A DNA stretch of 45,727 nucleotides from a virus. Shown piece by piece: positions 2,010-37,026 of this stretch. Position 1 is the stretch's first letter, and each line of letters begins with the position of its first letter. Location of the stretch: positions 1 through 45,727 of IMG/VR virus record IMGVR_UViG_3300045119_000483. One strand, written 5' to 3'. The translations under genes were made by a program, and so were the position numbers. The notes under the pieces were generated by a model. It was not told the DNA's origin, made no database searches, and saw only the letters and a program-made list of their open reading frames with translations.

Positions 2010-5000
2010 GTTGGCGAATGACCCGCGCCAGATCCGGCTTCGTCGCAACGTGCCGCTGAAGCACCTGTTCGAAAGATTCGTTCGTATTCCCGGCGCGGCC
2101 CTGCTCGTCTTTGATGGCTCGCCAGATGGCGGCCTGCATTTGGCGGGGCTCGACGCCTGCCTTTTTTGCTAGCTGTGTAAGCTGATAGTCGAGGAACTTG
2201 TACTGCCCTGCTGTCAGGTTGTCGCTCTGGCGGCCCATCGCTCTCGCTATCCATCGATCAACCGTCACCCGATCTGGATCGCCAAACAGGTTCGCTTTGA
2301 AGCTCGATACCTTCGGGCCTGACGGCGAGATCCCCTTTACCACTTTCTCGAGATTGCCGATGACTGCGGGCATGTATCCCTTAAAAGGCTGTCCGGTCTT
2401 GTATTGGGTGTAGGCCTTGAGGGCCATCGTCACATTACCTTCTACCGTGTTATTGGGCGAGGTGGCCGCGAGCATGTCCACGAACATGGGAGCGTCGGGA
2501 CCGAAGTGCTGCTCGAGTTCGGTTTGCGTGTGCTTGTACCAGTCCTCGCCCAGTTTCCCTGCCTTGTACATCGCCAGCACTCGCTTCGTGGTGGGCATAT
2601 TGCCGGCAGTTTCGGCGACCCTTCTTGCGTAGATCTTCTGCGCATCGGCCCACATCTTCTCAAGGTGCGGTTTGATCGCCGGCCCTGCGTCCGCGATCAT
2701 TTCTTTCGACCACTTCGCGAAGTCCACAGTGCCTTTCGCAATTTTGGCCGCTCCCCAGATCGCCATGTCCGCCAGATCGTTGACCGGTACCAAGGCGTTC
2801 ATCTGGGTGCCTTTGAAGGTTCCCCGCTGGCGCATGCGCTCGATGGCCGCATCGGCGTGCTCCTGCAGGGCGTCACTGACGCGGCCGAGGGCTCCCGGTT
2901 TCGCGGGAGCTTCCGGAGCAGTCGCGGGAGCTTCACCTGTGAGTTTGGCTTTCCTGGCCGCCACGCTGGCTTGGTTGCGCTGCACGGCATCCTTCAGAGC
3001 TGCAGCTCCGGATCCTCCGCCTGCTGGAGGTGGTTCCTCTGGTGGACCTGGCGGCGGTTCCTCTGGGGGTGCCTTTGCCGCCACCGCACGTATCTTCGCC
3101 TGAGTCAGCGCCGCGGCGCCGGGGCTCTTCGGCTGCAGGCCCTCAGTCAAAAGCGAGATACCCTTCGGTGTGTAGAAGAGCTTGCTGCCGATGTAGCCCT
3201 GCGCCCATCGCGCGGGGTTCATGCTGGTGGCCTGGCGTACCAACTCGGTGCCCGAAGTATTGGGATTTTTCACCACCATGTCCAGGCCCTTGAAAAAGTC
3301 GTCCAGGTTAGCCCGGAGCGCGGCGTCAGGATATAGAATTTTCTTAGTCTCCGGGCCCAGGTCGCGCCACTGATTCAGGATTCCCTGCGTCTTGCCGATT
3401 CCGCCCTCGCGCGTGGCTTTGTCTACGAGCTGCTGCACGTAGGCGCGGCCGGCCGCAGGCATTTGTTCGGGCGCCAATTCCTGCACCTGGCGGAGAAAGC
3501 TGACACCGCTGTCCTTGGGCCAGACCAACCTGCCGAAATTCTGCACCGGCTCCTGTGCGCGTAACTGCTTGGCGACCTCTTCCACGCCCATCACATGGGC
3601 GTGCGTCTCGCGGCCAGCCTTCAATCCCTGGATCGCCTCAGGTCCACCTTTCGCCACTGCGCCGTCGATGCCCTCCTGCAGATCAGGAATCAGGTGTGCT
3701 GCTATCCCCTGCCCCGTGTCCCTGACACCTTCCTTAGCCGTGAGGTGGGCCATGGACTTCAGACCGCTGAGACCTCGCTCTGCAGCCCACGCTGGGATAA
3801 AATCGTCGCCCTTTACGATCTTCTGGAGGGCCGTGTAGCCCGCGGATGCGCTGCGCTCCGGCGCCGGGATCCACTGCATCTCTTCGATGAGCGGTCTGGC
3901 TGCGGCCTTGATGGCGCGCACGTCCACCGGCATGTTCACCCATTCCATCACCGGCTGATCTTCCATGAAGCCGGTCGGGTTGCCGTCGTCGCCGATGACT
4001 GCGACTTTTTTGGTTCGGACCGGGACCTCTTCGTCGAATGCCGGATTGTCGCGGCCCGCCCATGCCTTCTCGTAGCCGGCGTCTCTCTCGAGACTCAGCT
4101 TCGCGATGGTCTTATCCATTTGCGCGGGTATAGCGTGTCCTACCGATTCCGGAGTCACCGGAGTCGGGTGAACTTCCTGGGCCAGCTCTCCACCGACTCG
4201 TTGCAGCCCTGTTTCTGTCCCGCGATTGAACTCCGCGGCAGTCTGGGCTCCTAACGGGCTGTTCTTGGTGGTCGCCTCGAGGGCCTGAACCGCTTTATTC
4301 CCGGTACGGGTTCCAGCCGTCATTGGCACGCCCCGCTCGTCTAGAAAGTTCACCGCGGATTGCTCGACAGGGTTGAGGGTGTTCCTGACTTTCACGAGGT
4401 CCGCCGCTCCCCGAACTGCTCTCGACGCGACCTTGCCGGCAACAGCAGGCGCCACCGTGCTGCCGATCAGTCCCGTAGCTCCACCCGCGGCCCCCGCAAT
4501 ATCCGGCGCCTTGACGGGGGTCACTACGTTGCCGTACTTGTCGAGTCGCCCCTCCTCACCGCCGGCCTGCTCGCCGATCGCGGCCGCGGCCGGCCCAACC
4601 AGAGGTATTGCCGTCGCGAGTGCATGCCCGTGCGCCTCGATGAAATGATTAACAGCTCCGCTTCTATCGCCCGCGCGAATCGCCTCCATTCCCCTGCTAA
4701 CCGACTTGGCTACCTTCCTCGCCTGGTCAAGGTGGCCCGCGGCGATGCCTTGCAGCATCTCGGTGCCAGGGCCTGGCGTCACCGCCTGACCCGTGGCCGC
4801 CCGCGTGCCTTGCACCGCCAGGTCAGCCACCCCTTTCCCAAAGCTCGCCAGACCGCCGATGGACTTGTCCCACAGGTTGCCGAGGAAGCGTTCGCCGCCA
4901 CCACCTTCCGGCTGCTGCACATATGGTTTTCCGTGCTGGTCTAATGGCTGCGAATCCACCACCGAGAGCTGGCGCCCCCCGGGCGAGGCTTGCGGCAATG

Positions 5001-27361: not shown

Positions 27362-27542
27362 GATGGGCCTTCCGCGCCGGCCGCTCCGGTGGATCCTCCG
27401 GGGGCTCCTCGTCCTCCTCGAGCGCCTCGCGCAATTCCGCGGCGCGTGTCGCGCCTTCGCCCGATCCGCCGTTCTGCTCGAGCAGGAATATCACCGCCCG
27501 CGTCAGAAGTTTTGTCACGTCATGCTGTTCTGGTTTGCTCAC
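27351..27542 (-). CDS. Small acidic hypothetical protein
   Basis: 63 residues from a GTG start that overlaps the portal stop by four bases (GTGA). The first half is a helix (VTKLLTRAVIFLLEQNGG); the second is very acidic with LREALEEDEEPPEDPPERP. No domain is recognised. The tight overlaps on both sides argue that it is translated together with the portal gene. Confidence 0.55.
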   Translation of the reverse strand: MSKPEQHDVTKLLTRAVIFLLEQNGGSGEGATRAAELREALEEDEEPPEDPPERPARKAHRGG

Positions 27543-29749
27543 ATCATTCCGTTCTGCGGCACTGGCGCCGCCTGGCTGCCTACTGCTTGCGGTGGCATCC
27601 CAACCTCACCAGGCCCCTGCGGAGGTGTTTCTTGGGGCTGTCCGCCGTAGACTTGCTGGGCCAACTGGAGGTGCTGGGCCATCCGTTGGGCTGCTTGCTG
27701 ATTCGGATCCGGCGTGAGTGACTGGGCCACCTGGTTGACCATCGACTGCATCAACATTTTGCTGCGCATCTGTTGCTCGTGGTCGAGAATGTGTTTCACG
27801 CCGTAGCCAATGGCCTGGGCGTCCCTGTCCGGGTCCTTCCGTTCGTCCTCCAATTGCGCGATATGCGCGGCGATGTGCGCCTGGTCGTCGTCCATCGGGT
27901 TCACCGACACCGTCTGACCCTCGAGCATTTCGGTCCACTCTTCGTCCGGGGTTTTCGGCCGGTCCATATCTGCTGGCTTCGGAATGATGTCGGCAAAATC
28001 GATGTTGAAATTCTTGGCGAGCCCGTTTAAGAGACTCCACATCGCCTTCGGGTTCTGCTGCACGAGCGGGTTGGACATCGCGGCGCCGTAGAACGCCATG
28101 CCTTCCTGCTTCTTCTGTTGGCGAGCCCAGACCGTCGTGGCGAATTTGAGGCGGAAGTCGTACCGGCCCCCGAATTCCATGGGCGTCATGAAGGCGCCGC
28201 CCTTCCGCGTGTCGAACAGCCCGTTGGCCTGCTCTTCGGTGACGCGGAAAAAGAGACCCGGTTCCACTTGCGGAACGAACGCGCAGTCGAGGTTCCAGAT
28301 GTCGCCGATGATTTGCTCGAAATCCTCTCGCAGGATGGTGGCGTCCAAGTAGGCCCGGACATTGCCTTCTTCGATCAGGGCGAGCTGGCCGGTCGCAGTC
28401 CGCGGTGCGTTGGGCCGGTCCACCGCTCGTCCCAGCGATTGATCGGTGATGCCGGTGACGCGCTCCGCCATCGAGAGAATATCCTGTTGGCGCGCTATGC
28501 CGTAGTCGATTCCGGGGTTGAGCTTGATCACATTCACCGACTGCGGATCTTCTGTCGGGATGCCGAGACCTGGCTCGAGGCGAATGGTCCCGGGTTTCAT
28601 GCCGCCGCCGGGTTTGAAAAAGACAATCGGCCAGATCTGTAACTCGCCGGCCGCGGTAAACAGCCGCGAGTTGGCGGTGGCCTCATCCTCGAGATCCTCG
28701 AGCAAGGCGCCAAAGCCCTTCGGCCGATACGTGCCGTCTTTGATCAGCGTGCTCTCGACAAAGGGCCGGCGCTTTCTCATCTTGGGGTAAAGCTCGAGCA
28801 GATCCTGGCAGCCCACGATCTTGCGCATGCCCGGGATGAAGCGGACGACCCAGTCCGATTCGAAAAGCTCGCGGCGCTCGAGGTCATCTTCCGCGGGTGC
28901 ATCTTTTCTGCCCTTCAGTGGACGCCACTTGCCATACCATTCCCACATCCAGATCGATCGCCGGCCCAGCATGTAGCTGTCGTAATCGACTCCTTCAGAG
29001 CGTTCGCGTTCTGCGATCACCGGGGCTTGCCCCACCAGCGTGTAGTCGTTGCTCACCGCCTGCTGGGCCCAGATGAGTGCTTCCCTGACGAATTCCGGGG
29101 TGGCGCACTCGTCGAAGTAGAGTGTTCCGGCGCCGTGTTGCAGGTCATCCACCGTGACGCGGACTCTGCGGATCACGAACGAGAAATCCTGAATCGACTG
29201 TACCCCGCGCTCCGGGGGAACAACGATGTGGTCCGGTTCCATCGGGAAAAAGCCCGGGCCTTCGTAGTCGCAGGCGCGTGTGCGCTTACCGTTCTCGAGC
29301 GTGTCGAATTCTCTGCGGTACCAGGGACGATAGGCGCAGCTCCAGCCGTTCAGAATGCGCCGGAATTCGAAGGCGCACAGCGGGTTGATGATTTCCATCT
29401 GGTCGAATAGGCGGCTGGTCATCCAGCGCCCGATCTTCGCGACCTGGCCGCGGTCGCTGGGCCCCGTGGCGCGTGCGGTGATTTCGGCCTCCTCGCCGAG
29501 TAATGCCTGGATGTCCCGCGCTAATTTGTTGAAGGTCTGCCACTGCATCAGCGGAACGGTATGGTTCGGCTTGTCCTCGTCACCGGGGGCCGGCGGATCG
29601 ACTCTGCTTTCCCACTTCTTCATCCAGCCCGCGCAACGCTCAGACCATCGCTGGTGCGAAGCGAGACTCAGCAGCATGTCCTGCTCGATGCGCGTCGAGA
29701 GCAAGGTCAGCTCACTGTCAGGTAGATCGATTTGGAAAGACTTCGGCAT
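27539..29749 (-). CDS. Portal protein (P22-like size)
   Basis: 736 residues from the ATG at 29749 (MPKSFQIDLPDSELT), close to the 725 residues of the P22 portal. It lies between the large terminase and the head genes as portals do. Landmarks: the N-terminal part with HTVPLMQWQTFNKLARDIQALLGEE, the stem-like SVNVIKLNPGIDYGIARQQDILSMAERVTGITDQSLG, and a C-terminal Gln-rich helical tail (PDPNQQAAQRMAQHLQLAQQVY) that recalls the barrel helix of P22 portal. It forms the ring through which DNA is packaged and ejected. Confidence 0.85.
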   Translation of the reverse strand: MPKSFQIDLPDSELTLLSTRIEQDMLLSLASHQRWSERCAGWMKKWESRVDPPAPGDEDKPNHTVPLMQWQTFNKLARDIQALLGEEAEITARATGPSDRGQVAKIGRWMTSRLFDQMEIINPLCAFEFRRILNGWSCAYRPWYRREFDTLENGKRTRACDYEGPGFFPMEPDHIVVPPERGVQSIQDFSFVIRRVRVTVDDLQHGAGTLYFDECATPEFVREALIWAQQAVSNDYTLVGQAPVIAERERSEGVDYDSYMLGRRSIWMWEWYGKWRPLKGRKDAPAEDDLERRELFESDWVVRFIPGMRKIVGCQDLLELYPKMRKRRPFVESTLIKDGTYRPKGFGALLEDLEDEATANSRLFTAAGELQIWPIVFFKPGGGMKPGTIRLEPGLGIPTEDPQSVNVIKLNPGIDYGIARQQDILSMAERVTGITDQSLGRAVDRPNAPRTATGQLALIEEGNVRAYLDATILREDFEQIIGDIWNLDCAFVPQVEPGLFFRVTEEQANGLFDTRKGGAFMTPMEFGGRYDFRLKFATTVWARQQKKQEGMAFYGAAMSNPLVQQNPKAMWSLLNGLAKNFNIDFADIIPKPADMDRPKTPDEEWTEMLEGQTVSVNPMDDDQAHIAAHIAQLEDERKDPDRDAQAIGYGVKHILDHEQQMRSKMLMQSMVNQVAQSLTPDPNQQAAQRMAQHLQLAQQVYGGQPQETPPQGPGEVGMPPQAVGSQAAPVPQNGMM

Positions 29750-29756
29750 TTCTCGT

Positions 29757-29918
29757 TCAGTGAATCGGACTGCCGATGCCGCGGAGCATTTCGGCGGCAA
29801 CCCAGCAGGCCAGGCCAAAGCAGACCAGCCGGGTTCTCCAGGCGTCCGCCGGCGGATTCAGGGCGCCGGCGATGATGAACAAGACCAAGGCGAAAACCAG
29901 AGCTATCGTCGAGAACAT
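29757..29918 (-). CDS. Small membrane protein between terminase and portal
   Basis: 53 residues: MFSTIALVFALVLFIIAG is a clear transmembrane helix, followed by a short loop (NPPADAWRTRL) and a second hydrophobic segment (VCFGLACWVAAEML). A GAGGT site lies before the ATG. It ends seven bases before the portal start and begins ten bases after the terminase stop, so it is part of the same unit. Two-helix proteins can act as holins, but the place suggests nothing specific. Confidence 0.65.
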   Translation of the reverse strand: MFSTIALVFALVLFIIAGALNPPADAWRTRLVCFGLACWVAAEMLRGIGSPIH

Positions 29919-29927
29919 TTGGTTACC

Positions 29928-31655
29928 TCAATCGTCGTCGTTGGGCCTTTGTCGCTGGCCGTATTTCTCAGGCCTCCAGCGTTTGTCCTGATCCTTTGCG
30001 GCCGCGTCCCGGTAGGCGAACGCCTTGACCGCGTACGGCAGGCCTTCCACCGCCAGCGCCGCCCCGAAAACATCGTCATCGTGAGTGACGCCCTCTTCCC
30101 GGCCGTTCGGTTTTCTGACGAATTCCCGGTGCTGCTGGATCGATTCGGGGTCGTGCAGTTGGATCGCGCCCTCGCGGATCGCGCGGTCGAGGCCAGAGAT
30201 CAGCACCGGCCGGAAGACGCTGTTGGTGTCGAAGCCCAGCTCCTGCAGCAGCGGCGTCCGCCGGTCGCTCGGATCCCGCTGCTTGCTGTAGATCAGCTCT
30301 AGCGGGTATTGCAACGTGAGGAGCTGCCCGATTACAGCTTTGCCCACCGCCTTTTGTTCGGGCGTGAGGAAGGCCCAGTTGTAGAACTTGCCCAGCCAGT
30401 AGATCCGCTCCGCCCACGGGTGAGGTTCGTAGCGCTCTTTCAGGTGCGCGCATTCCTCTCCGGTGTCCGAGTCAATCACCGTCGCCGAACAATAGTCCGG
30501 GTCCGAGTTACCGGCGCCGGTTTTCGCTTTGGGGTCGATCCCTTCCGCGTGATCAATACCAATGACGTATCGTCCTCCTTTCCGCGGCATTTTGTAGATC
30601 GCCAGCTCGCCGCGGCCGTCCTCCGATTGAATGAATTGAACTCGCTTCTCGACGCCGGCATCGATTACCTCGAGCTTGCCCCGTGGCGCGTTCTGGATTG
30701 GCCGCATGCGGTTGACTGCGGTCATGTCGAAGATGGTGCGGCCTGAACTCTGGAACGCTTCCTGCGCATCGCCCGGGTGCTCCTGCCGGAATCGATCGAC
30801 CTTGCCCTCGCACGCCGTCTCGATCATCCAGCGGCGCCAGGCCACCTGGTCGATGTGCAGGTTGTACTTGGCGAGTTCCACCAGCTCGTCGCGCATCAGC
30901 TTGAATCCTGGCGGCGCCGGAATGCGGTTTTCGGGGTGCTCGTGATAGCCGAAAAAGACGAACGCCCAGCCGGTCGCTCTGCGCGGATCCATCGCGAGCT
31001 GGCAGAGGTCGTAGAAATCTCCGCCCATGCCGTTCGCTGTCGACTCCACGATCACGCCGCTGTCTGGTGACCTGGGGATACGCTGCATCAGGCCCGTCAT
31101 CAACGTTCCAAGGTCGCGGTAGAATCCGGCCTCGCTCATCAGCGCCCAGTTGTAGGGAGCTGATCTTCCGATATCGACGTTGTAGGCCGTTCCCACCAAG
31201 GCGCTCGAGTCGTTGGCCCAGCGGATCCACCTCTCGGTGTCTTTGACCAGGTCGGGCAGCGTGATAGCGCTGTCGAACTCGGCCCCGTAGGGGTTGTCGC
31301 GGTACGAGTCCATGTACTGCCGGAAGTAGTCGAAGATGAGGTCCGCGTGCATCTCGCTGTCCGCCAGAACCAGGGCGCGGCGGCCGGGGAAAAACGGGAT
31401 ACGGCGGAAGATCTCGGCGGAGGCGGCCGAGGTCATCCACACCTGAGAGGCCTTCAGCACCACCTGGCGGATCGGCAGGCCTGCCAGCTCCTGCTTGCGG
31501 ATCGAGCGGTTCAGCTTCTGGCCGGCGGGGGACGTCCGGTACGGTACGGTGACGCCCTCTTTGTTGCGGATTTTCAGGTGCTCGCAGAACTTCCCGTGGT
31601 CCGCAAATCCGCGGACTAGACGTTCGGCTTCGTATGCTGTGAGCTGTCCCGTCAC
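29928..31655 (-). CDS. terL: Terminase large subunit
   Basis: 575 residues from a GTG that overlaps the upstream stop. The ATPase shows a degenerate Walker A-like loop in LKASQVWMTS (Lys68), a Walker B in NWALMSEAG (about 169-177) and the coupling motif VESTANG (about 203-209). The nuclease domain has its first Asp in YVIGIDHAEG (Asp368), and an Asp cluster in THDDDVFGAA (about residue 530). It cuts and pumps DNA into the head. The classical GxxxxGK[ST] is absent, as in some terminase lineages. Confidence 0.9.
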   Translation of the reverse strand: MTGQLTAYEAERLVRGFADHGKFCEHLKIRNKEGVTVPYRTSPAGQKLNRSIRKQELAGLPIRQVVLKASQVWMTSAASAEIFRRIPFFPGRRALVLADSEMHADLIFDYFRQYMDSYRDNPYGAEFDSAITLPDLVKDTERWIRWANDSSALVGTAYNVDIGRSAPYNWALMSEAGFYRDLGTLMTGLMQRIPRSPDSGVIVESTANGMGGDFYDLCQLAMDPRRATGWAFVFFGYHEHPENRIPAPPGFKLMRDELVELAKYNLHIDQVAWRRWMIETACEGKVDRFRQEHPGDAQEAFQSSGRTIFDMTAVNRMRPIQNAPRGKLEVIDAGVEKRVQFIQSEDGRGELAIYKMPRKGGRYVIGIDHAEGIDPKAKTGAGNSDPDYCSATVIDSDTGEECAHLKERYEPHPWAERIYWLGKFYNWAFLTPEQKAVGKAVIGQLLTLQYPLELIYSKQRDPSDRRTPLLQELGFDTNSVFRPVLISGLDRAIREGAIQLHDPESIQQHREFVRKPNGREEGVTHDDDVFGAALAVEGLPYAVKAFAYRDAAAKDQDKRWRPEKYGQRQRPNDDD

Positions 31656-32032
31656 TGCTGGTTCGTTCCTTCGACTCCGCGCTTAATGCGGGCCACAGTT
31701 CGGCGCTGAAGCCACATTAGAGCCTCTTCGCAGTGGGTAAGCGCGATCGCGTTCTCGCGGCATCGGAACGGCCCTTCCTGAAAACTGCGCAGGCGATCGA
31801 TCACGATGGCGAGCAGTGCTTCCTGCGTTATGCCGTTGACACCGTGTTCCTTGATCGGCCCGTTTTGGAAGGAGATGAGGCATCGGCCGAGGCTCTTCCC
31901 GCCGCCGCCGATGGAGTCCGTGGTGATGGAATACTCGTGGCAAGCTCCACCCTCGCCCGGCTGATCGATTACATCGATGTTCAACTGCCCGGCCTGATCG
32001 CCGCTAACTATGTGGTCGGTAAGTGTTCTCAT
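31652..32032 (-). CDS. Acb2/Tad1-like cyclic-nucleotide sponge candidate
   Basis: 126 residues. The C-terminal two thirds match the pattern I know from proteins annotated with the Acb2/Tad1 hairpin domain: ISFQNGPIKEHGVNGITQEALL, IDRLRSFQEGPFRCRENA, then the helix IALTHCEEALMWLQRRTVAR and an RGVEGT tail. Such phage proteins bind cyclic di- or trinucleotides or cADPR-type signals and block CBASS or Thoeris defence. It sits between the terminase genes and overlaps terL by four bases, so it would be made late unless expressed separately. Family assignment is from recall of the motif; the ligand is unknown. Confidence 0.7.
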   Translation of the reverse strand: MRTLTDHIVSGDQAGQLNIDVIDQPGEGGACHEYSITTDSIGGGGKSLGRCLISFQNGPIKEHGVNGITQEALLAIVIDRLRSFQEGPFRCRENAIALTHCEEALMWLQRRTVARIKRGVEGTNQQ

Positions 32033-32037
32033 GCCGG

Positions 32038-32535
32038 CTATTTCTCCGGTTCCCCGCTGGTCAGTTTTCGGTACGTCGCCAGCAGCTCTTCCATCGTTCC
32101 CGAGAATTTGTGGTGTACGTTCACGTCACCTTTGACCTCTGCCCGCTCCCTATACTTCTCCGGTGCGGCGCCGCGCAACAGGAACATCATCAGCGCGTCG
32201 GAGTAGACCGTCTGTTTCCCGCACTCTTCGCCCTGGTAGTAGACACTCTGCTTGGTGCCCTCTACCGCACGCTTGATGGCCGCGTCCTCGAGCACCTCCG
32301 TTGCCTGCTTCAGGGCTCGAGCGTGCAGGGCCCGGTATTGCTCGTCCAGCTCCAGCCATCGGTGGTGAGTGGATCGTGCGATCCTCGCCAGCTTTGCAGC
32401 TCTGCCCACCTGGCCTGCGTGAAACACCAGGGCCGTCAGGAAGGCTGCCTGCTTCGGCTTTGCTCCCGGCCAGTTGGGTGATTCGGCCGGCTCCGGTTCC
32501 GGCTCGCTTACTGGTTCGTCCTGCTCGTCGTCCAT
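32038..32535 (-). CDS. terS: Terminase small subunit
   Basis: 165 residues. After an acidic N-terminus (EPVSEPEPEPAES) comes a helix-turn-helix domain typical of small terminases: KPKQAAFLTALVFHAGQV, GRAAKLARIARSTHHRWLE, then DEQYRALHARALKQATEVLED. The C-terminal part carries YRERAEVKGDVNVHHK, also common in these proteins. It recognises the packaging site and loads the large subunit. The stop lies five bases before the Acb2-like gene. Confidence 0.85.
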   Translation of the reverse strand: MDDEQDEPVSEPEPEPAESPNWPGAKPKQAAFLTALVFHAGQVGRAAKLARIARSTHHRWLELDEQYRALHARALKQATEVLEDAAIKRAVEGTKQSVYYQGEECGKQTVYSDALMMFLLRGAAPEKYRERAEVKGDVNVHHKFSGTMEELLATYRKLTSGEPEK

Positions 32536-32557
32536 CTCGGCTTGTCTGGCGGCTCAC

Positions 32558-32830
32558 TCAACCTTGCGGCTCCCCCGGGAAGCGCATGACCGCAGCCTTG
32601 GAATTTAGCCAGTTGAGTTGAAAGGGTAGCTGCGTGGGCCCGCTTGTCCGACTCGACCCGGTTGTCCGATACCGCGGCTCCCCTTCCTTCATCCGCAGCA
32701 GCCCGTTCGTCAATTCAGCGAGCCCCTGGTCCATGAGACGCCTCGCTCCACGGAGCGACGTCCAACCCACTACACCTGACGCACTGATCACCTTCACCTT
32801 GCTTTTGGATTTGTGGTTTGACACCGACAC
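32558..32830 (-). CDS. Hypothetical protein upstream of terS
   Basis: 90 residues from a GTG start with GAGGTG upstream. The N-terminus is Ser/Lys-rich (MSVSNHKSKSKVKV), followed by SLRRGA-type helix (WTSLRGARRLMDQGLAEL) and a polar tail with GEPRYRTTGSSRTSG. No domain is recognised. A 126-bp gap before it contains a small hairpin (AAGGC, GTACT, GCCTT) followed by T residues on the plus strand. Confidence 0.5.
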   Translation of the reverse strand: MSVSNHKSKSKVKVISASGVVGWTSLRGARRLMDQGLAELTNGLLRMKEGEPRYRTTGSSRTSGPTQLPFQLNWLNSKAAVMRFPGEPQG

Positions 32831-32956
32831 ACCTCAGCATGCACCCAGATAGGCACTTGCGCTGCGATGGCGACCGGTTTCGGCTTGCTAAGATGAAGCT
32901 CGACCCGGCCGCGCGGTCCCTTGTGGGGACGCGGAAGGCGTACTGCCTTTTAAATC

Positions 32957-33169
32957 CTACTCCAGCTTGCTGTGCGGGTATTGACCCTTCACATTCGCAT
33001 GGAGGTAAGAGCCGACGGAACCACTCGTCATCAGCTCGTTAAACGTTTCTTCTGGCACGCCCTCGTACTTGTACAGGCCGCCGCTCGTGTACTGCACATG
33101 CAGCTCCTGGGTCTCCGGGTCGTAGCCAACCGATTCCACATTCGCGCTTTGGACTGGCTGCATGTCCAT
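32957..33169 (-). CDS. KTSC-domain protein
   Basis: 70 residues, nearly all KTSC domain: VQSANVESVGYDPETQELHVQYTSG-type strand pattern, GGLYKYEGVPEETFNELM and SGSVGSYLHANVKGQYPHSKL, ending in the family's K[GT]xYPxxK. The domain is common in phages and may bind nucleic acid or a lysyl-tRNA synthetase-like partner, but its role is not settled. It follows the next upstream gene by three bases. Confidence 0.85.
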   Translation of the reverse strand: MDMQPVQSANVESVGYDPETQELHVQYTSGGLYKYEGVPEETFNELMTSGSVGSYLHANVKGQYPHSKLE

Positions 33170-33172
33170 AAC

Positions 33173-33649
33173 TTAAGCCTTGTTCCTCACCAGTTGAGGG
33201 CCGGCCAGCGGCACTAACTCAAAGGTCCGCGGGCCCGTCCGTTTCTTCGGAGCGATCCTGTCGAGGAACGCCTCGCCTAAGAGTTTCTGGATGCTTTCCT
33301 GGGTGGCGCGAAAGATGCTGAACGGCGCCAGCCCGGTCTTTTTGACGGCTTCGAAGGCGGTCTCTTGCGCCGCGGCCGTCACCTCCCGCCGAAACTGGCA
33401 CGCTTTGATCTGCAGCCGATAGCGCCGGCCTTCCACCACGTAGCTCTCCGCCGGCGGAGCATCTCCATACCAGCCGCACACGATCGCGTGCAGTTCCGCG
33501 CGTCGTGCTGCGTGCGGATTGACGCCCGGGGTCCACAGCTTGAATTGCCGGTCCACCTCGCCCAGCTCGTCGATAATCGCTTGCCGGGATGCCGCGCGGG
33601 TTGTGGCTGTAGCCTGCTTCACAAAACACACCCAATTTGTGATCAGCAT
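33173..33649 (-). CDS. Hypothetical protein, late-block leader region
   Basis: 158 residues. The start MLITNWVCFVKQATATTRAASRQ is followed by IIDELGEVDRQFKLWTPGVNPH, a central SYVVEGRRYRLQIKACQFRRE, and a C-terminal helix (ATQESIQKLLGEAFLDRI). The true start could be a later codon because the first residues are atypical. No catalytic motif is visible. It is second in the late unit, ahead of the KTSC gene. Confidence 0.6.
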   Translation of the reverse strand: MLITNWVCFVKQATATTRAASRQAIIDELGEVDRQFKLWTPGVNPHAARRAELHAIVCGWYGDAPPAESYVVEGRRYRLQIKACQFRREVTAAAQETAFEAVKKTGLAPFSIFRATQESIQKLLGEAFLDRIAPKKRTGPRTFELVPLAGPQLVRNKA

Positions 33650-33764
33650 AGCACTACTACGTCTAGAACTTAAAGGGTTTGTAAGTGGGCCGCCTACGTT
33701 CGGCCCTGGTGGTTACCAGCCACACGCTCCGCTTGATGCGGAAAACTAGGCACACTGCGGAGGT

Positions 33765-33962
33765 TTAATGTTCCAAATTGTCGATGCGTTGCTCGTGTTC
33801 GTCGAGCCGCTCATCGTGGATAGCCGCGATATTACCCAGCCGTACCACTGCGTCCTTTACATCAGCCGCATATTCAGTCATTTGTTTTTCGAAATCGTGG
33901 TGCATGCCAGTCAGGACTTCCAGGTGCATCGTCAGTGCTTGAATGCGTTCGTCGATGGTCAT
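33765..33962 (-). CDS. Small coiled-coil protein, first gene of the late block
   Basis: 65 residues from the ATG at 33962 (MTIDERIQALTMHLEVLTG), with AGGA upstream. Nearly all of it is heptad-like helix, ending AAIHDERLDEHEQRIDNLEH. It is the first gene behind the minus-strand promoter at 33997-34002 and so opens the late unit that runs into the terminase genes. It may be a regulator or an assembly partner; no family is named. Confidence 0.6.
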   Translation of the reverse strand: MTIDERIQALTMHLEVLTGMHHDFEKQMTEYAADVKDAVVRLGNIAAIHDERLDEHEQRIDNLEH

Positions 33963-33972
33963 TCGTTTTCCT

Positions 33973-34002
33973 GCCCGATGGTGTCGGGCTGTAACCATTA
34001 TA
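33973..34002 (-). promoter_or_regulatory. Minus-strand promoter and leader hairpin of the late block
   Basis: On the minus strand a perfect TATAAT lies at 33997-34002. About seven bases downstream, where transcription should begin, GCCCGA (33973-33978) and TCGGGC (33984-33989) form a six-base stem with a five-base loop. The -35 is poor and would lie next to the palindromic operator at 34028, suggesting control by the operator-binding protein. Confidence 0.55.
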
Positions 34003-34017
34003 TCCAATACTGGCGCG

Positions 34018-34049
34018 TGTTATCCTCACTTCTCAGAGTTCTGAGAAGT
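34018..34049 (+). promoter_or_regulatory. Plus promoter plus palindromic operator (site 3)
   Basis: TGT followed by TATCCT (34021-34026) is an extended -10 for the HTH gene. The 22-bp palindrome (arms ACTTCTCAGA 34028-34037 and TCTGAGAAGT 34040-34049, centre GT) starts one base after it and ends two bases before the ATG at 34052. A protein bound here would cover the start of transcription and of the gene. It also lies just upstream of the minus promoter, so both directions could be controlled at once. Confidence 0.75.
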
Positions 34050-34051
34050 CC

Positions 34052-34561
34052 ATGCCAACTAAACCCGATTACTCCACCTGGTTAACCAAACAACAAGCCG
34101 CTCAAGCCATCGAAGCGAGCACCAAGACTATCGAGCAGCTCGCCCGCGACGGTAAGCTCCAGCAGCAGCGCTGGCGCCGGCCGGAAGGAGGCCCGCAGAT
34201 CGTCGTCTACCATCCTCGAGACGTGGAGCGGCTCCGGAAGGAGCGCAACCCGGACGCGGCGCCGTTCGTCCTGCCGACGGCTTCAACCGGTTCAGTGAAC
34301 CAGGAGCTGGTGCCCGTGCGAGGCCCGGAACAGTTCATGCAGGCGCTCGCTGCGATGACTTCTCAGACTTCTGAGAAGCGGTCAACGACCGTGCGGTTGT
34401 CGGAGAAGCTTTACCTCACGTTCAGCGAGGCGGCCGAGTACACGGGCTTGGGAGTTGGCTACCTGCGGGAGTTGGTCATGCGGGGGGAATTGTTGCCGCG
34501 GAAACGTATTGGCCCCCACGGGTCGTCGGTATTGCGTCGGGAGGAACTCGAGAAGCTTTAG
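34052..34561 (+). CDS. Double helix-turn-helix (excisionase-type) regulator
   Basis: 169 residues with two DNA-binding domains of the MerR/excisionase type. The first spans about 8-70: WLTKQQAAQAIEASTKTIEQL, a wing region, then HPRDVERLRKER. The second spans about 115-169: LTFSEAAEYTGLGVGYLREL, then RGELLPRKRIGPHG and REELEKL. A Pro/Thr-rich linker joins them. Its gene lies directly behind operator site 3 and contains site 4, so autoregulation is likely. It is the best candidate for the protein that binds the dispersed palindromes, acting as repressor or as excisionase-regulator. This link is inferred. Confidence 0.75.
   Translation: MPTKPDYSTWLTKQQAAQAIEASTKTIEQLARDGKLQQQRWRRPEGGPQIVVYHPRDVERLRKERNPDAAPFVLPTASTGSVNQELVPVRGPEQFMQALAAMTSQTSEKRSTTVRLSEKLYLTFSEAAEYTGLGVGYLRELVMRGELLPRKRIGPHGSSVLRREELEKL
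34358..34379. promoter_or_regulatory. Palindromic operator inside the HTH gene (site 4)
   Basis: Arms ACTTCTCAGA (34358-34367) and TCTGAGAAG plus C (34370-34379) around CT; the last base breaks the perfect match. It encodes TSQTSEK in the linker between the two DNA-binding domains, a place that tolerates any sequence. It could act as a roadblock or an auxiliary site that loops to site 3, about 330 bp away. Confidence 0.8.
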
Positions 34562-36414: not shown

Positions 36415-37026
36415 TCACGCCGCAGAGGCTTTCCGCACACCCCGCAGCCGGCGGTTTCCGCCCACTCCGAGGGCATCCCGTATAGTCGAAACCGACACGC
36501 CCAGCTTGGCCGCGATCGCCCGCCAGCTCATACCCTGCTTCCTGAGCTTCTCCGCCTTGCCACGAGCGAAAACCTTCATCGGGCGTCCGCAATGCTTCCC
36601 CTGCCTCTGCGCTTCCGCCACGCCGGCCTTAACCCGCTCGACGATGATGTTACGCTCAAGCTCCGCCAGCAGCCCGAACAGGCCCAGCAGGAACTTCCCC
36701 ATGGGGTCCGAGGCGTCCGAACTGATGTTCTGGGTAAGGGACCGCACCGACACCCCATGTGAGGCCAGCTCGCACGTCACGTTCACGAACTGCTTCATTG
36801 ACCTGGCGAAGCGGTCGATCTTCCAGACCAGGATGGTGTCAATCTTCCGTTGCCGTGCGTCCTCGATCATCCGGTCGAACACCGGCCGCTTCTTCATCGA
36901 GGATTCCTTCTCGAGGTATTCGGTGGCCTCCCAGCCCATGCGTTGCACGTACTCGCGCAGGGGTGTGAGCTGCATGTCGTTCTCCTGGTGCTGGGTGGAC
37001 ACCCGGGCGTAGATTGCGACCTTCAT
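36415..37026 (-). CDS. Serine recombinase (resolvase/invertase family)
   Basis: 203 residues, the size of small serine recombinases. The N-terminal catalytic domain starts MKVAIYARVSTQHQENDMQL, with the nucleophile Ser10 and Arg8. Further motifs are IDTILVWKIDRFARSM and FLLGLFGLLAELERNIIVERVKAGV, followed by the connecting helix and a C-terminal HTH (KQGMSWRAIAAKLGVSVSTI). It can resolve or invert DNA between short sites. It may resolve phage dimers, invert a segment, or serve as a second integration function beside the tyrosine integrase. Confidence 0.9.
   Translation of the reverse strand: MKVAIYARVSTQHQENDMQLTPLREYVQRMGWEATEYLEKESSMKKRPVFDRMIEDARQRKIDTILVWKIDRFARSMKQFVNVTCELASHGVSVRSLTQNISSDASDPMGKFLLGLFGLLAELERNIIVERVKAGVAEAQRQGKHCGRPMKVFARGKAEKLRKQGMSWRAIAAKLGVSVSTIRDALGVGGNRRLRGVRKASAA

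Follow-up and report, generated by a model that had tools for sequence, protein, structure and literature searches.

Tad1 is defined by an antiparallel beta-sheet at the N-terminus, made up of four strands, and two long helices after it. Six of its sites take up glyco-cyclic ADP-ribose (gcADPR) and cyclic dinucleotides, and two others cyclic trinucleotides, while Acb2 is described as a short helix together with two long helices (PMC12043709). The gene considered here, tad1, lies between the genes for the small (terS) and large (terL) terminase subunits of a soil phage, represented by the IMG/VR virus record IMGVR_UViG_3300045119_000483 (positions 1 to 45,727; this whole stretch of 45,727 nucleotides is referred to below as the window). 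It is very probably a moron that is expressed with the late packaging operon, and whose product sequesters gcADPR and/or cyclic oligonucleotides.

The open reading frame (ORF) at 31652-32032, on the minus strand, starts with ATG and encodes 126 residues, including the segments quoted in the original prediction of an Acb2/Tad1-like protein, which was made from the sequence alone. Residues 71-110 match the Pfam family PF24729 (Acb2/Tad1 hairpin) with 30.1 bits, above the curated cut-off of 27, so that the profile search proposed as a check did find the hairpin domain. The protein also matches phrog_2428 (2.8e-35). Among solved structures, phmmer aligns it with CbTad1 (7uav) over nearly the whole length (7.5e-25, residues 19-125), with CmTad1 (8kbb) over residues 53-125 only (1.9e-23), and with gp184 of phage phiKZ (2.7e-16). 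The family assignment thus stands far above chance expectation. A PADLOC search of the protein gave no match, as expected, since the PADLOC library holds defence proteins.

The fold sharpens the family assignment to Tad1. An AlphaFold2 model of the monomer, built from a 65-row alignment, has a mean predicted local distance difference test score (pLDDT) of 90.3 and a predicted template modelling score (pTM) of 0.82; it begins with four strands at the N-terminus and continues with a pair of long helices. The beta-sheet region covers residues 1-59 (31856-32032, minus strand; strands 2-4, 17-21, 33-38, and 51-55), and the helical part, which is the Acb2/Tad1 hairpin, covers residues 60-118 (31679-31855, minus strand; helices 70-86 and 92-118). 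A Foldseek search of the model against the PDB returns 20 significant chains, all of them Tad1, with CbTad1 at the top (template modelling score (TM) 0.82/0.84, 44% identity), whereas hit 21 has an E-value above 1; with the CbTad1-gcADPR structure the model reaches a TM of 0.82. As the N-terminal beta-sheet is present, and with it the whole Tad1 fold, the protein is a Tad1 and not an Acb2. The latter identity was considered and rejected: Acb2 has about 94 residues and a short N-terminal helix, against 126 residues and a beta-sheet here, and the significant PDB fold matches are to Tad1 only. The N-terminal part of about 45 residues, originally described as extra, is indeed extra relative to Acb2, but in both the CbTad1 alignment and the model it is the standard beta-sheet region of Tad1. 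A fold lacking the hairpin and its nucleotide pocket, which would have spoken against the assignment, was not obtained, as the modelled monomer has the hairpin and keeps the pocket-type residues. The combined sequence and model evidence well supports a real, full-length, ordinary Tad1, from a family that was already known.

In the alignment of 65 sequences, 21 residues are invariant. Among them, F84, N94, R111, and R115 of the window protein, found in all 65, align with F82, N92, R109, and R113 of CbTad1, the first three of which we take to be ligand-pocket positions. Their codons (31781-31783, 31751-31753, 31700-31702, and 31688-31690, respectively) lie in the stretch 31688-31783, on the minus strand. 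The relatives were collected via conserved peptides, which inflates conservation within those peptides, but the four residues lie outside them. Substitutions between tad1 of the window and its relatives fall mostly at third codon positions, and the ratio of nonsynonymous to synonymous substitution rates (dN/dS) is about 0.06-0.16, a rough value since dS is near saturation; this pattern indicates that the gene is under purifying selection.

The placement between the terminase genes, as first described, is borne out by PHROG matches and by the sequence itself. All three genes are on the minus strand: terS (32038-32535; phrog_4044, E = 1.9e-29), tad1, and terL (29928-31655; phrog_24361, 6.8e-8; tblastn 1e-35 to annotated large terminases, with about 90% of the terL length aligned). 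Five nucleotides separate the terS stop from the tad1 ATG, and the tad1 stop (TGA) overlaps the terL start (GTG) in the motif GTGA at 31652-31655. A GGAG at 32044-32047 (minus strand), 11 nt before the ATG and within the end of terS, is a possible ribosome-binding site of tad1.

The original prediction offered two explanations for this unexpected position, either a promoter of its own or protection at the late stage of infection. A scan of 31500-34200 with the sigma-70 consensus found no promoter-like site, and together with the tight junctions this makes transcription of tad1 with the packaging genes likely; judged from the sequence, tad1 is probably made late, together with the head proteins. 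Such timing fits the published finding that the major capsid protein sets off some Thoeris systems (PMC12578639). Late protection fits better than an own promoter. Early expression from an own promoter (or by antitermination), with the location between terS and terL being accidental, appears unlikely. It would suit the presence of tad1 among replication genes elsewhere (OLIVR5, L006, and L046, the L numbers being our handles for contigs and loci), and the scan covered the sigma-70 consensus only; in addition, a sigma factor sits in this slot in some relatives. Nevertheless, the region 31500-34200 holds no promoter-like site, and the 5-nt junction and the 4-nt overlap leave zero free intergenic DNA around this tightly packed gene.

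Relatives of the phage make the position less strange than first thought, as they show the slot variously filled. The comparison started from nine close relatives of terL (69-84%) and was widened to 80 more distant ones on viral contigs and two on genome contigs; 30 loci, several of them near-duplicates, have a confident terS. In 12 of the 30, there is nothing in the slot, and terS and terL overlap by 4 nt; in the other 18, the window among them, 163-1168 nt separate the two genes. In relatives, these contents include sigma-70 factors (L088/L105 and L091/L120), an N6/N4 DNA methylase (L101), and mostly unknown genes, and only the window has tad1 there. A sigma factor also occupies this position in L122, where the terS call is weaker. 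Between L101 and L097, both flanks show 93-95% identity, so that the methylase gene (L101:2554-3504), present in one and absent from the other, with 4-nt overlaps at both junctions, represents a clean gain or loss. In the window, it is tad1 that assumes the 4-nt overlap with terL. A search of 50 related records (many of them fragments) found tad1 in one only, L129, whose terL is 65% identical and whose tad1 begins one base past the portal stop. Presence and absence, together with two different sites (the slot, and behind the portal in L129), mark tad1 as accessory cargo in the packaging block of the lineage. On these comparisons, the gap between terS and terL is a variable cargo slot, and tad1 a removable moron within it.

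Two of the other cargo types may be observed in their own right. The methylase of L101, which occupies the place that tad1 has in the window, may be cargo directed against restriction. The sigma-70 family factors (L105, about 2997-3482; L120, 2675-3253; L122, 2652-3494) are possibly late-gene regulators.

The proposed mechanism of the Tad1 moron is as follows. A self-contained, non-core gene, packed tightly against terS and terL, would be expressed on the late head-packaging transcript, so that Tad1 would be produced at the same time as the capsid proteins to which some Thoeris systems respond. The protein, presumably a hexamer built as a trimer of dimers, would act as an oligomeric sponge that binds and retains the gcADPR isomers of Thoeris. 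It may also hold the cyclic di- or trinucleotides of the cyclic oligonucleotide-based anti-phage signalling system (CBASS), among them cyclic triadenylate (cA3), which also serves type III CRISPR. With these signals sequestered, effectors such as ThsA or NucC would stay off. The host is probably a member of the Acidobacteriota, since relatives of the window terL sit in two metagenome-assembled genomes (MAGs) of this phylum.

Some observations weigh against this reading. Neither of the two MAGs holding phage relatives gave a match to the Toll/interleukin-1 receptor (TIR) domain of ThsB, and only one of them has a CD-NTase domain. Furthermore, tad1 is not enriched near terL across the contigs tested, so that late expression is no general rule for the family. 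The gene does lie near terL, portal, or major capsid protein genes in L008, L013, L016, L017, L029, L030, L057, L062, L068, and L073, and near replication genes in the three contigs named above. However, in a distance test of 38 contigs, 10 carry tad1 no more than 4 kb from terL, where 7.4 would be expected (Kolmogorov–Smirnov p = 0.60, or 0.17 with contigs treated as circular), and the late label is scattered over the tad1 tree, with 13 changes against 14.6 in shuffles. A general selection of tad1 for head modules, first suggested by its neighbours in more than 12 contigs, was rejected, as neither the distance test nor the tree shows any.

As a separate observation, a CD-NTase-like (SMODS, PF18144) protein is encoded at L179:898-2064, in the Acidobacteriota MAG to which L176, a relative of the phage, belongs.

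A virion-packaged sponge constitutes another possible explanation, which we consider improbable. Tad1 made late would enter the newly formed head and reach the next host cell along with the DNA on injection, protecting that infection from its first minute, as with phiKZ gp184. This homologue is annotated as a structural protein and has been validated as injected (PMC10449902), and a review names it an injected Tad1 (PMC13282480); in addition, tad1 of the window lies among packaging genes, and that of L129 directly behind the portal. Nevertheless, the window protein, with 126 residues, does not have the N-terminal extension of about 100 residues found in gp184 (230 residues), a possible packaging element, and tad1 has no general tie to head genes in the 38 contigs. 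Just as doubtful is a dedicated site, in which the slot would serve genes for host takeover (those of Tad1, the DNA methylase, and the sigma factor), whose products would be made at the same time as the head and might even be packaged in it; if true, a small phage would share the injected-sponge strategy of the jumbo phage phiKZ. That the protein uses a Tad1 fold for packaging or head structure and no longer binds nucleotides is very improbable, as, despite the location in the packaging block and the presence of phiKZ gp184 in virions, the pocket-type residues are retained, and tad1 is absent from close relatives in which terS abuts terL, which shows that it is dispensable for packaging.

The surroundings of the slot add some context to the Tad1 moron. 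Downstream of terL, a probable portal gene (27539-29818, minus strand) is proposed from its position and size, with a homologue after terL in relatives; family searches of this candidate (Pfam, PHROG) gave no direct match. Two genes upstream of terS, a 70-residue KTSC-domain protein (32957-33169, minus strand; PF13619, 5.7e-23) is retained in several relatives. A temperate phage is hinted at by a serine resolvase (36415-37026, minus strand; PF00239, 3e-40), as well as by a helix-turn-helix protein (34052-34561, plus strand) that weakly matches an excisionase. A nucleotide search of 24 kb against 50,697 phage records found no match.

The locus brings the Tad1 family a member from a phage lineage without a close DNA relative among sequenced phages, and shows that the packaging gene block can carry a predicted anti-signalling sponge in a removable slot. 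The location of tad1 is instructive, yet explainable, and the cargo between terS and terL offers a practical place to seek further counter-defence genes.

A Tad1-like region also occurs in another architecture. In gp131 of Burkholderia phage FLC9 (L083:3374-4390, 338 residues), it forms the C-terminal part, behind a cyclophilin-type prolyl isomerase (PF00160, 2.5e-44, residues 3-162), and no other record of the phage collection matches it over 80% of the protein.

Among the known systems, Acb2 shares with the window protein the helical hairpin family PF24729, whereas the beta-sheet is a feature of the window protein. Tad1 of SBSphiJ7 belongs to the same Pfam family and is homologous in the hairpin and the C-terminal tail, but it has 142 residues and a longer insertion in the beta-region, and comes from a Bacillus herellevirus in which it is not part of a terminase operon. 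The likeness to phiKZ gp184 (PDB 8y6v) concerns its C-terminal Tad1 domain; the differences are its length of 230 residues, its N-terminal extension, its packaging and injection, and its jumbo phage context. CmTad1 (PDB 8kbb-8kbd) matches the window model in fold (TM about 0.70-0.80, 32-38% identity), and its solved complexes hold cA3 and cyclic AMP-AMP-GMP (cAAG), whereas trinucleotide binding by the window protein is only predicted. The closest counterpart is CbTad1, from a Clostridium botulinum prophage (PDB 7uav, 7uaw, 8smd, 8kbe, and 8kbf), with which the window protein has the whole fold in common, beta-sheet and helical hairpin, as well as the aligned F, N, R, and R; the two differ in host group and in gene location.
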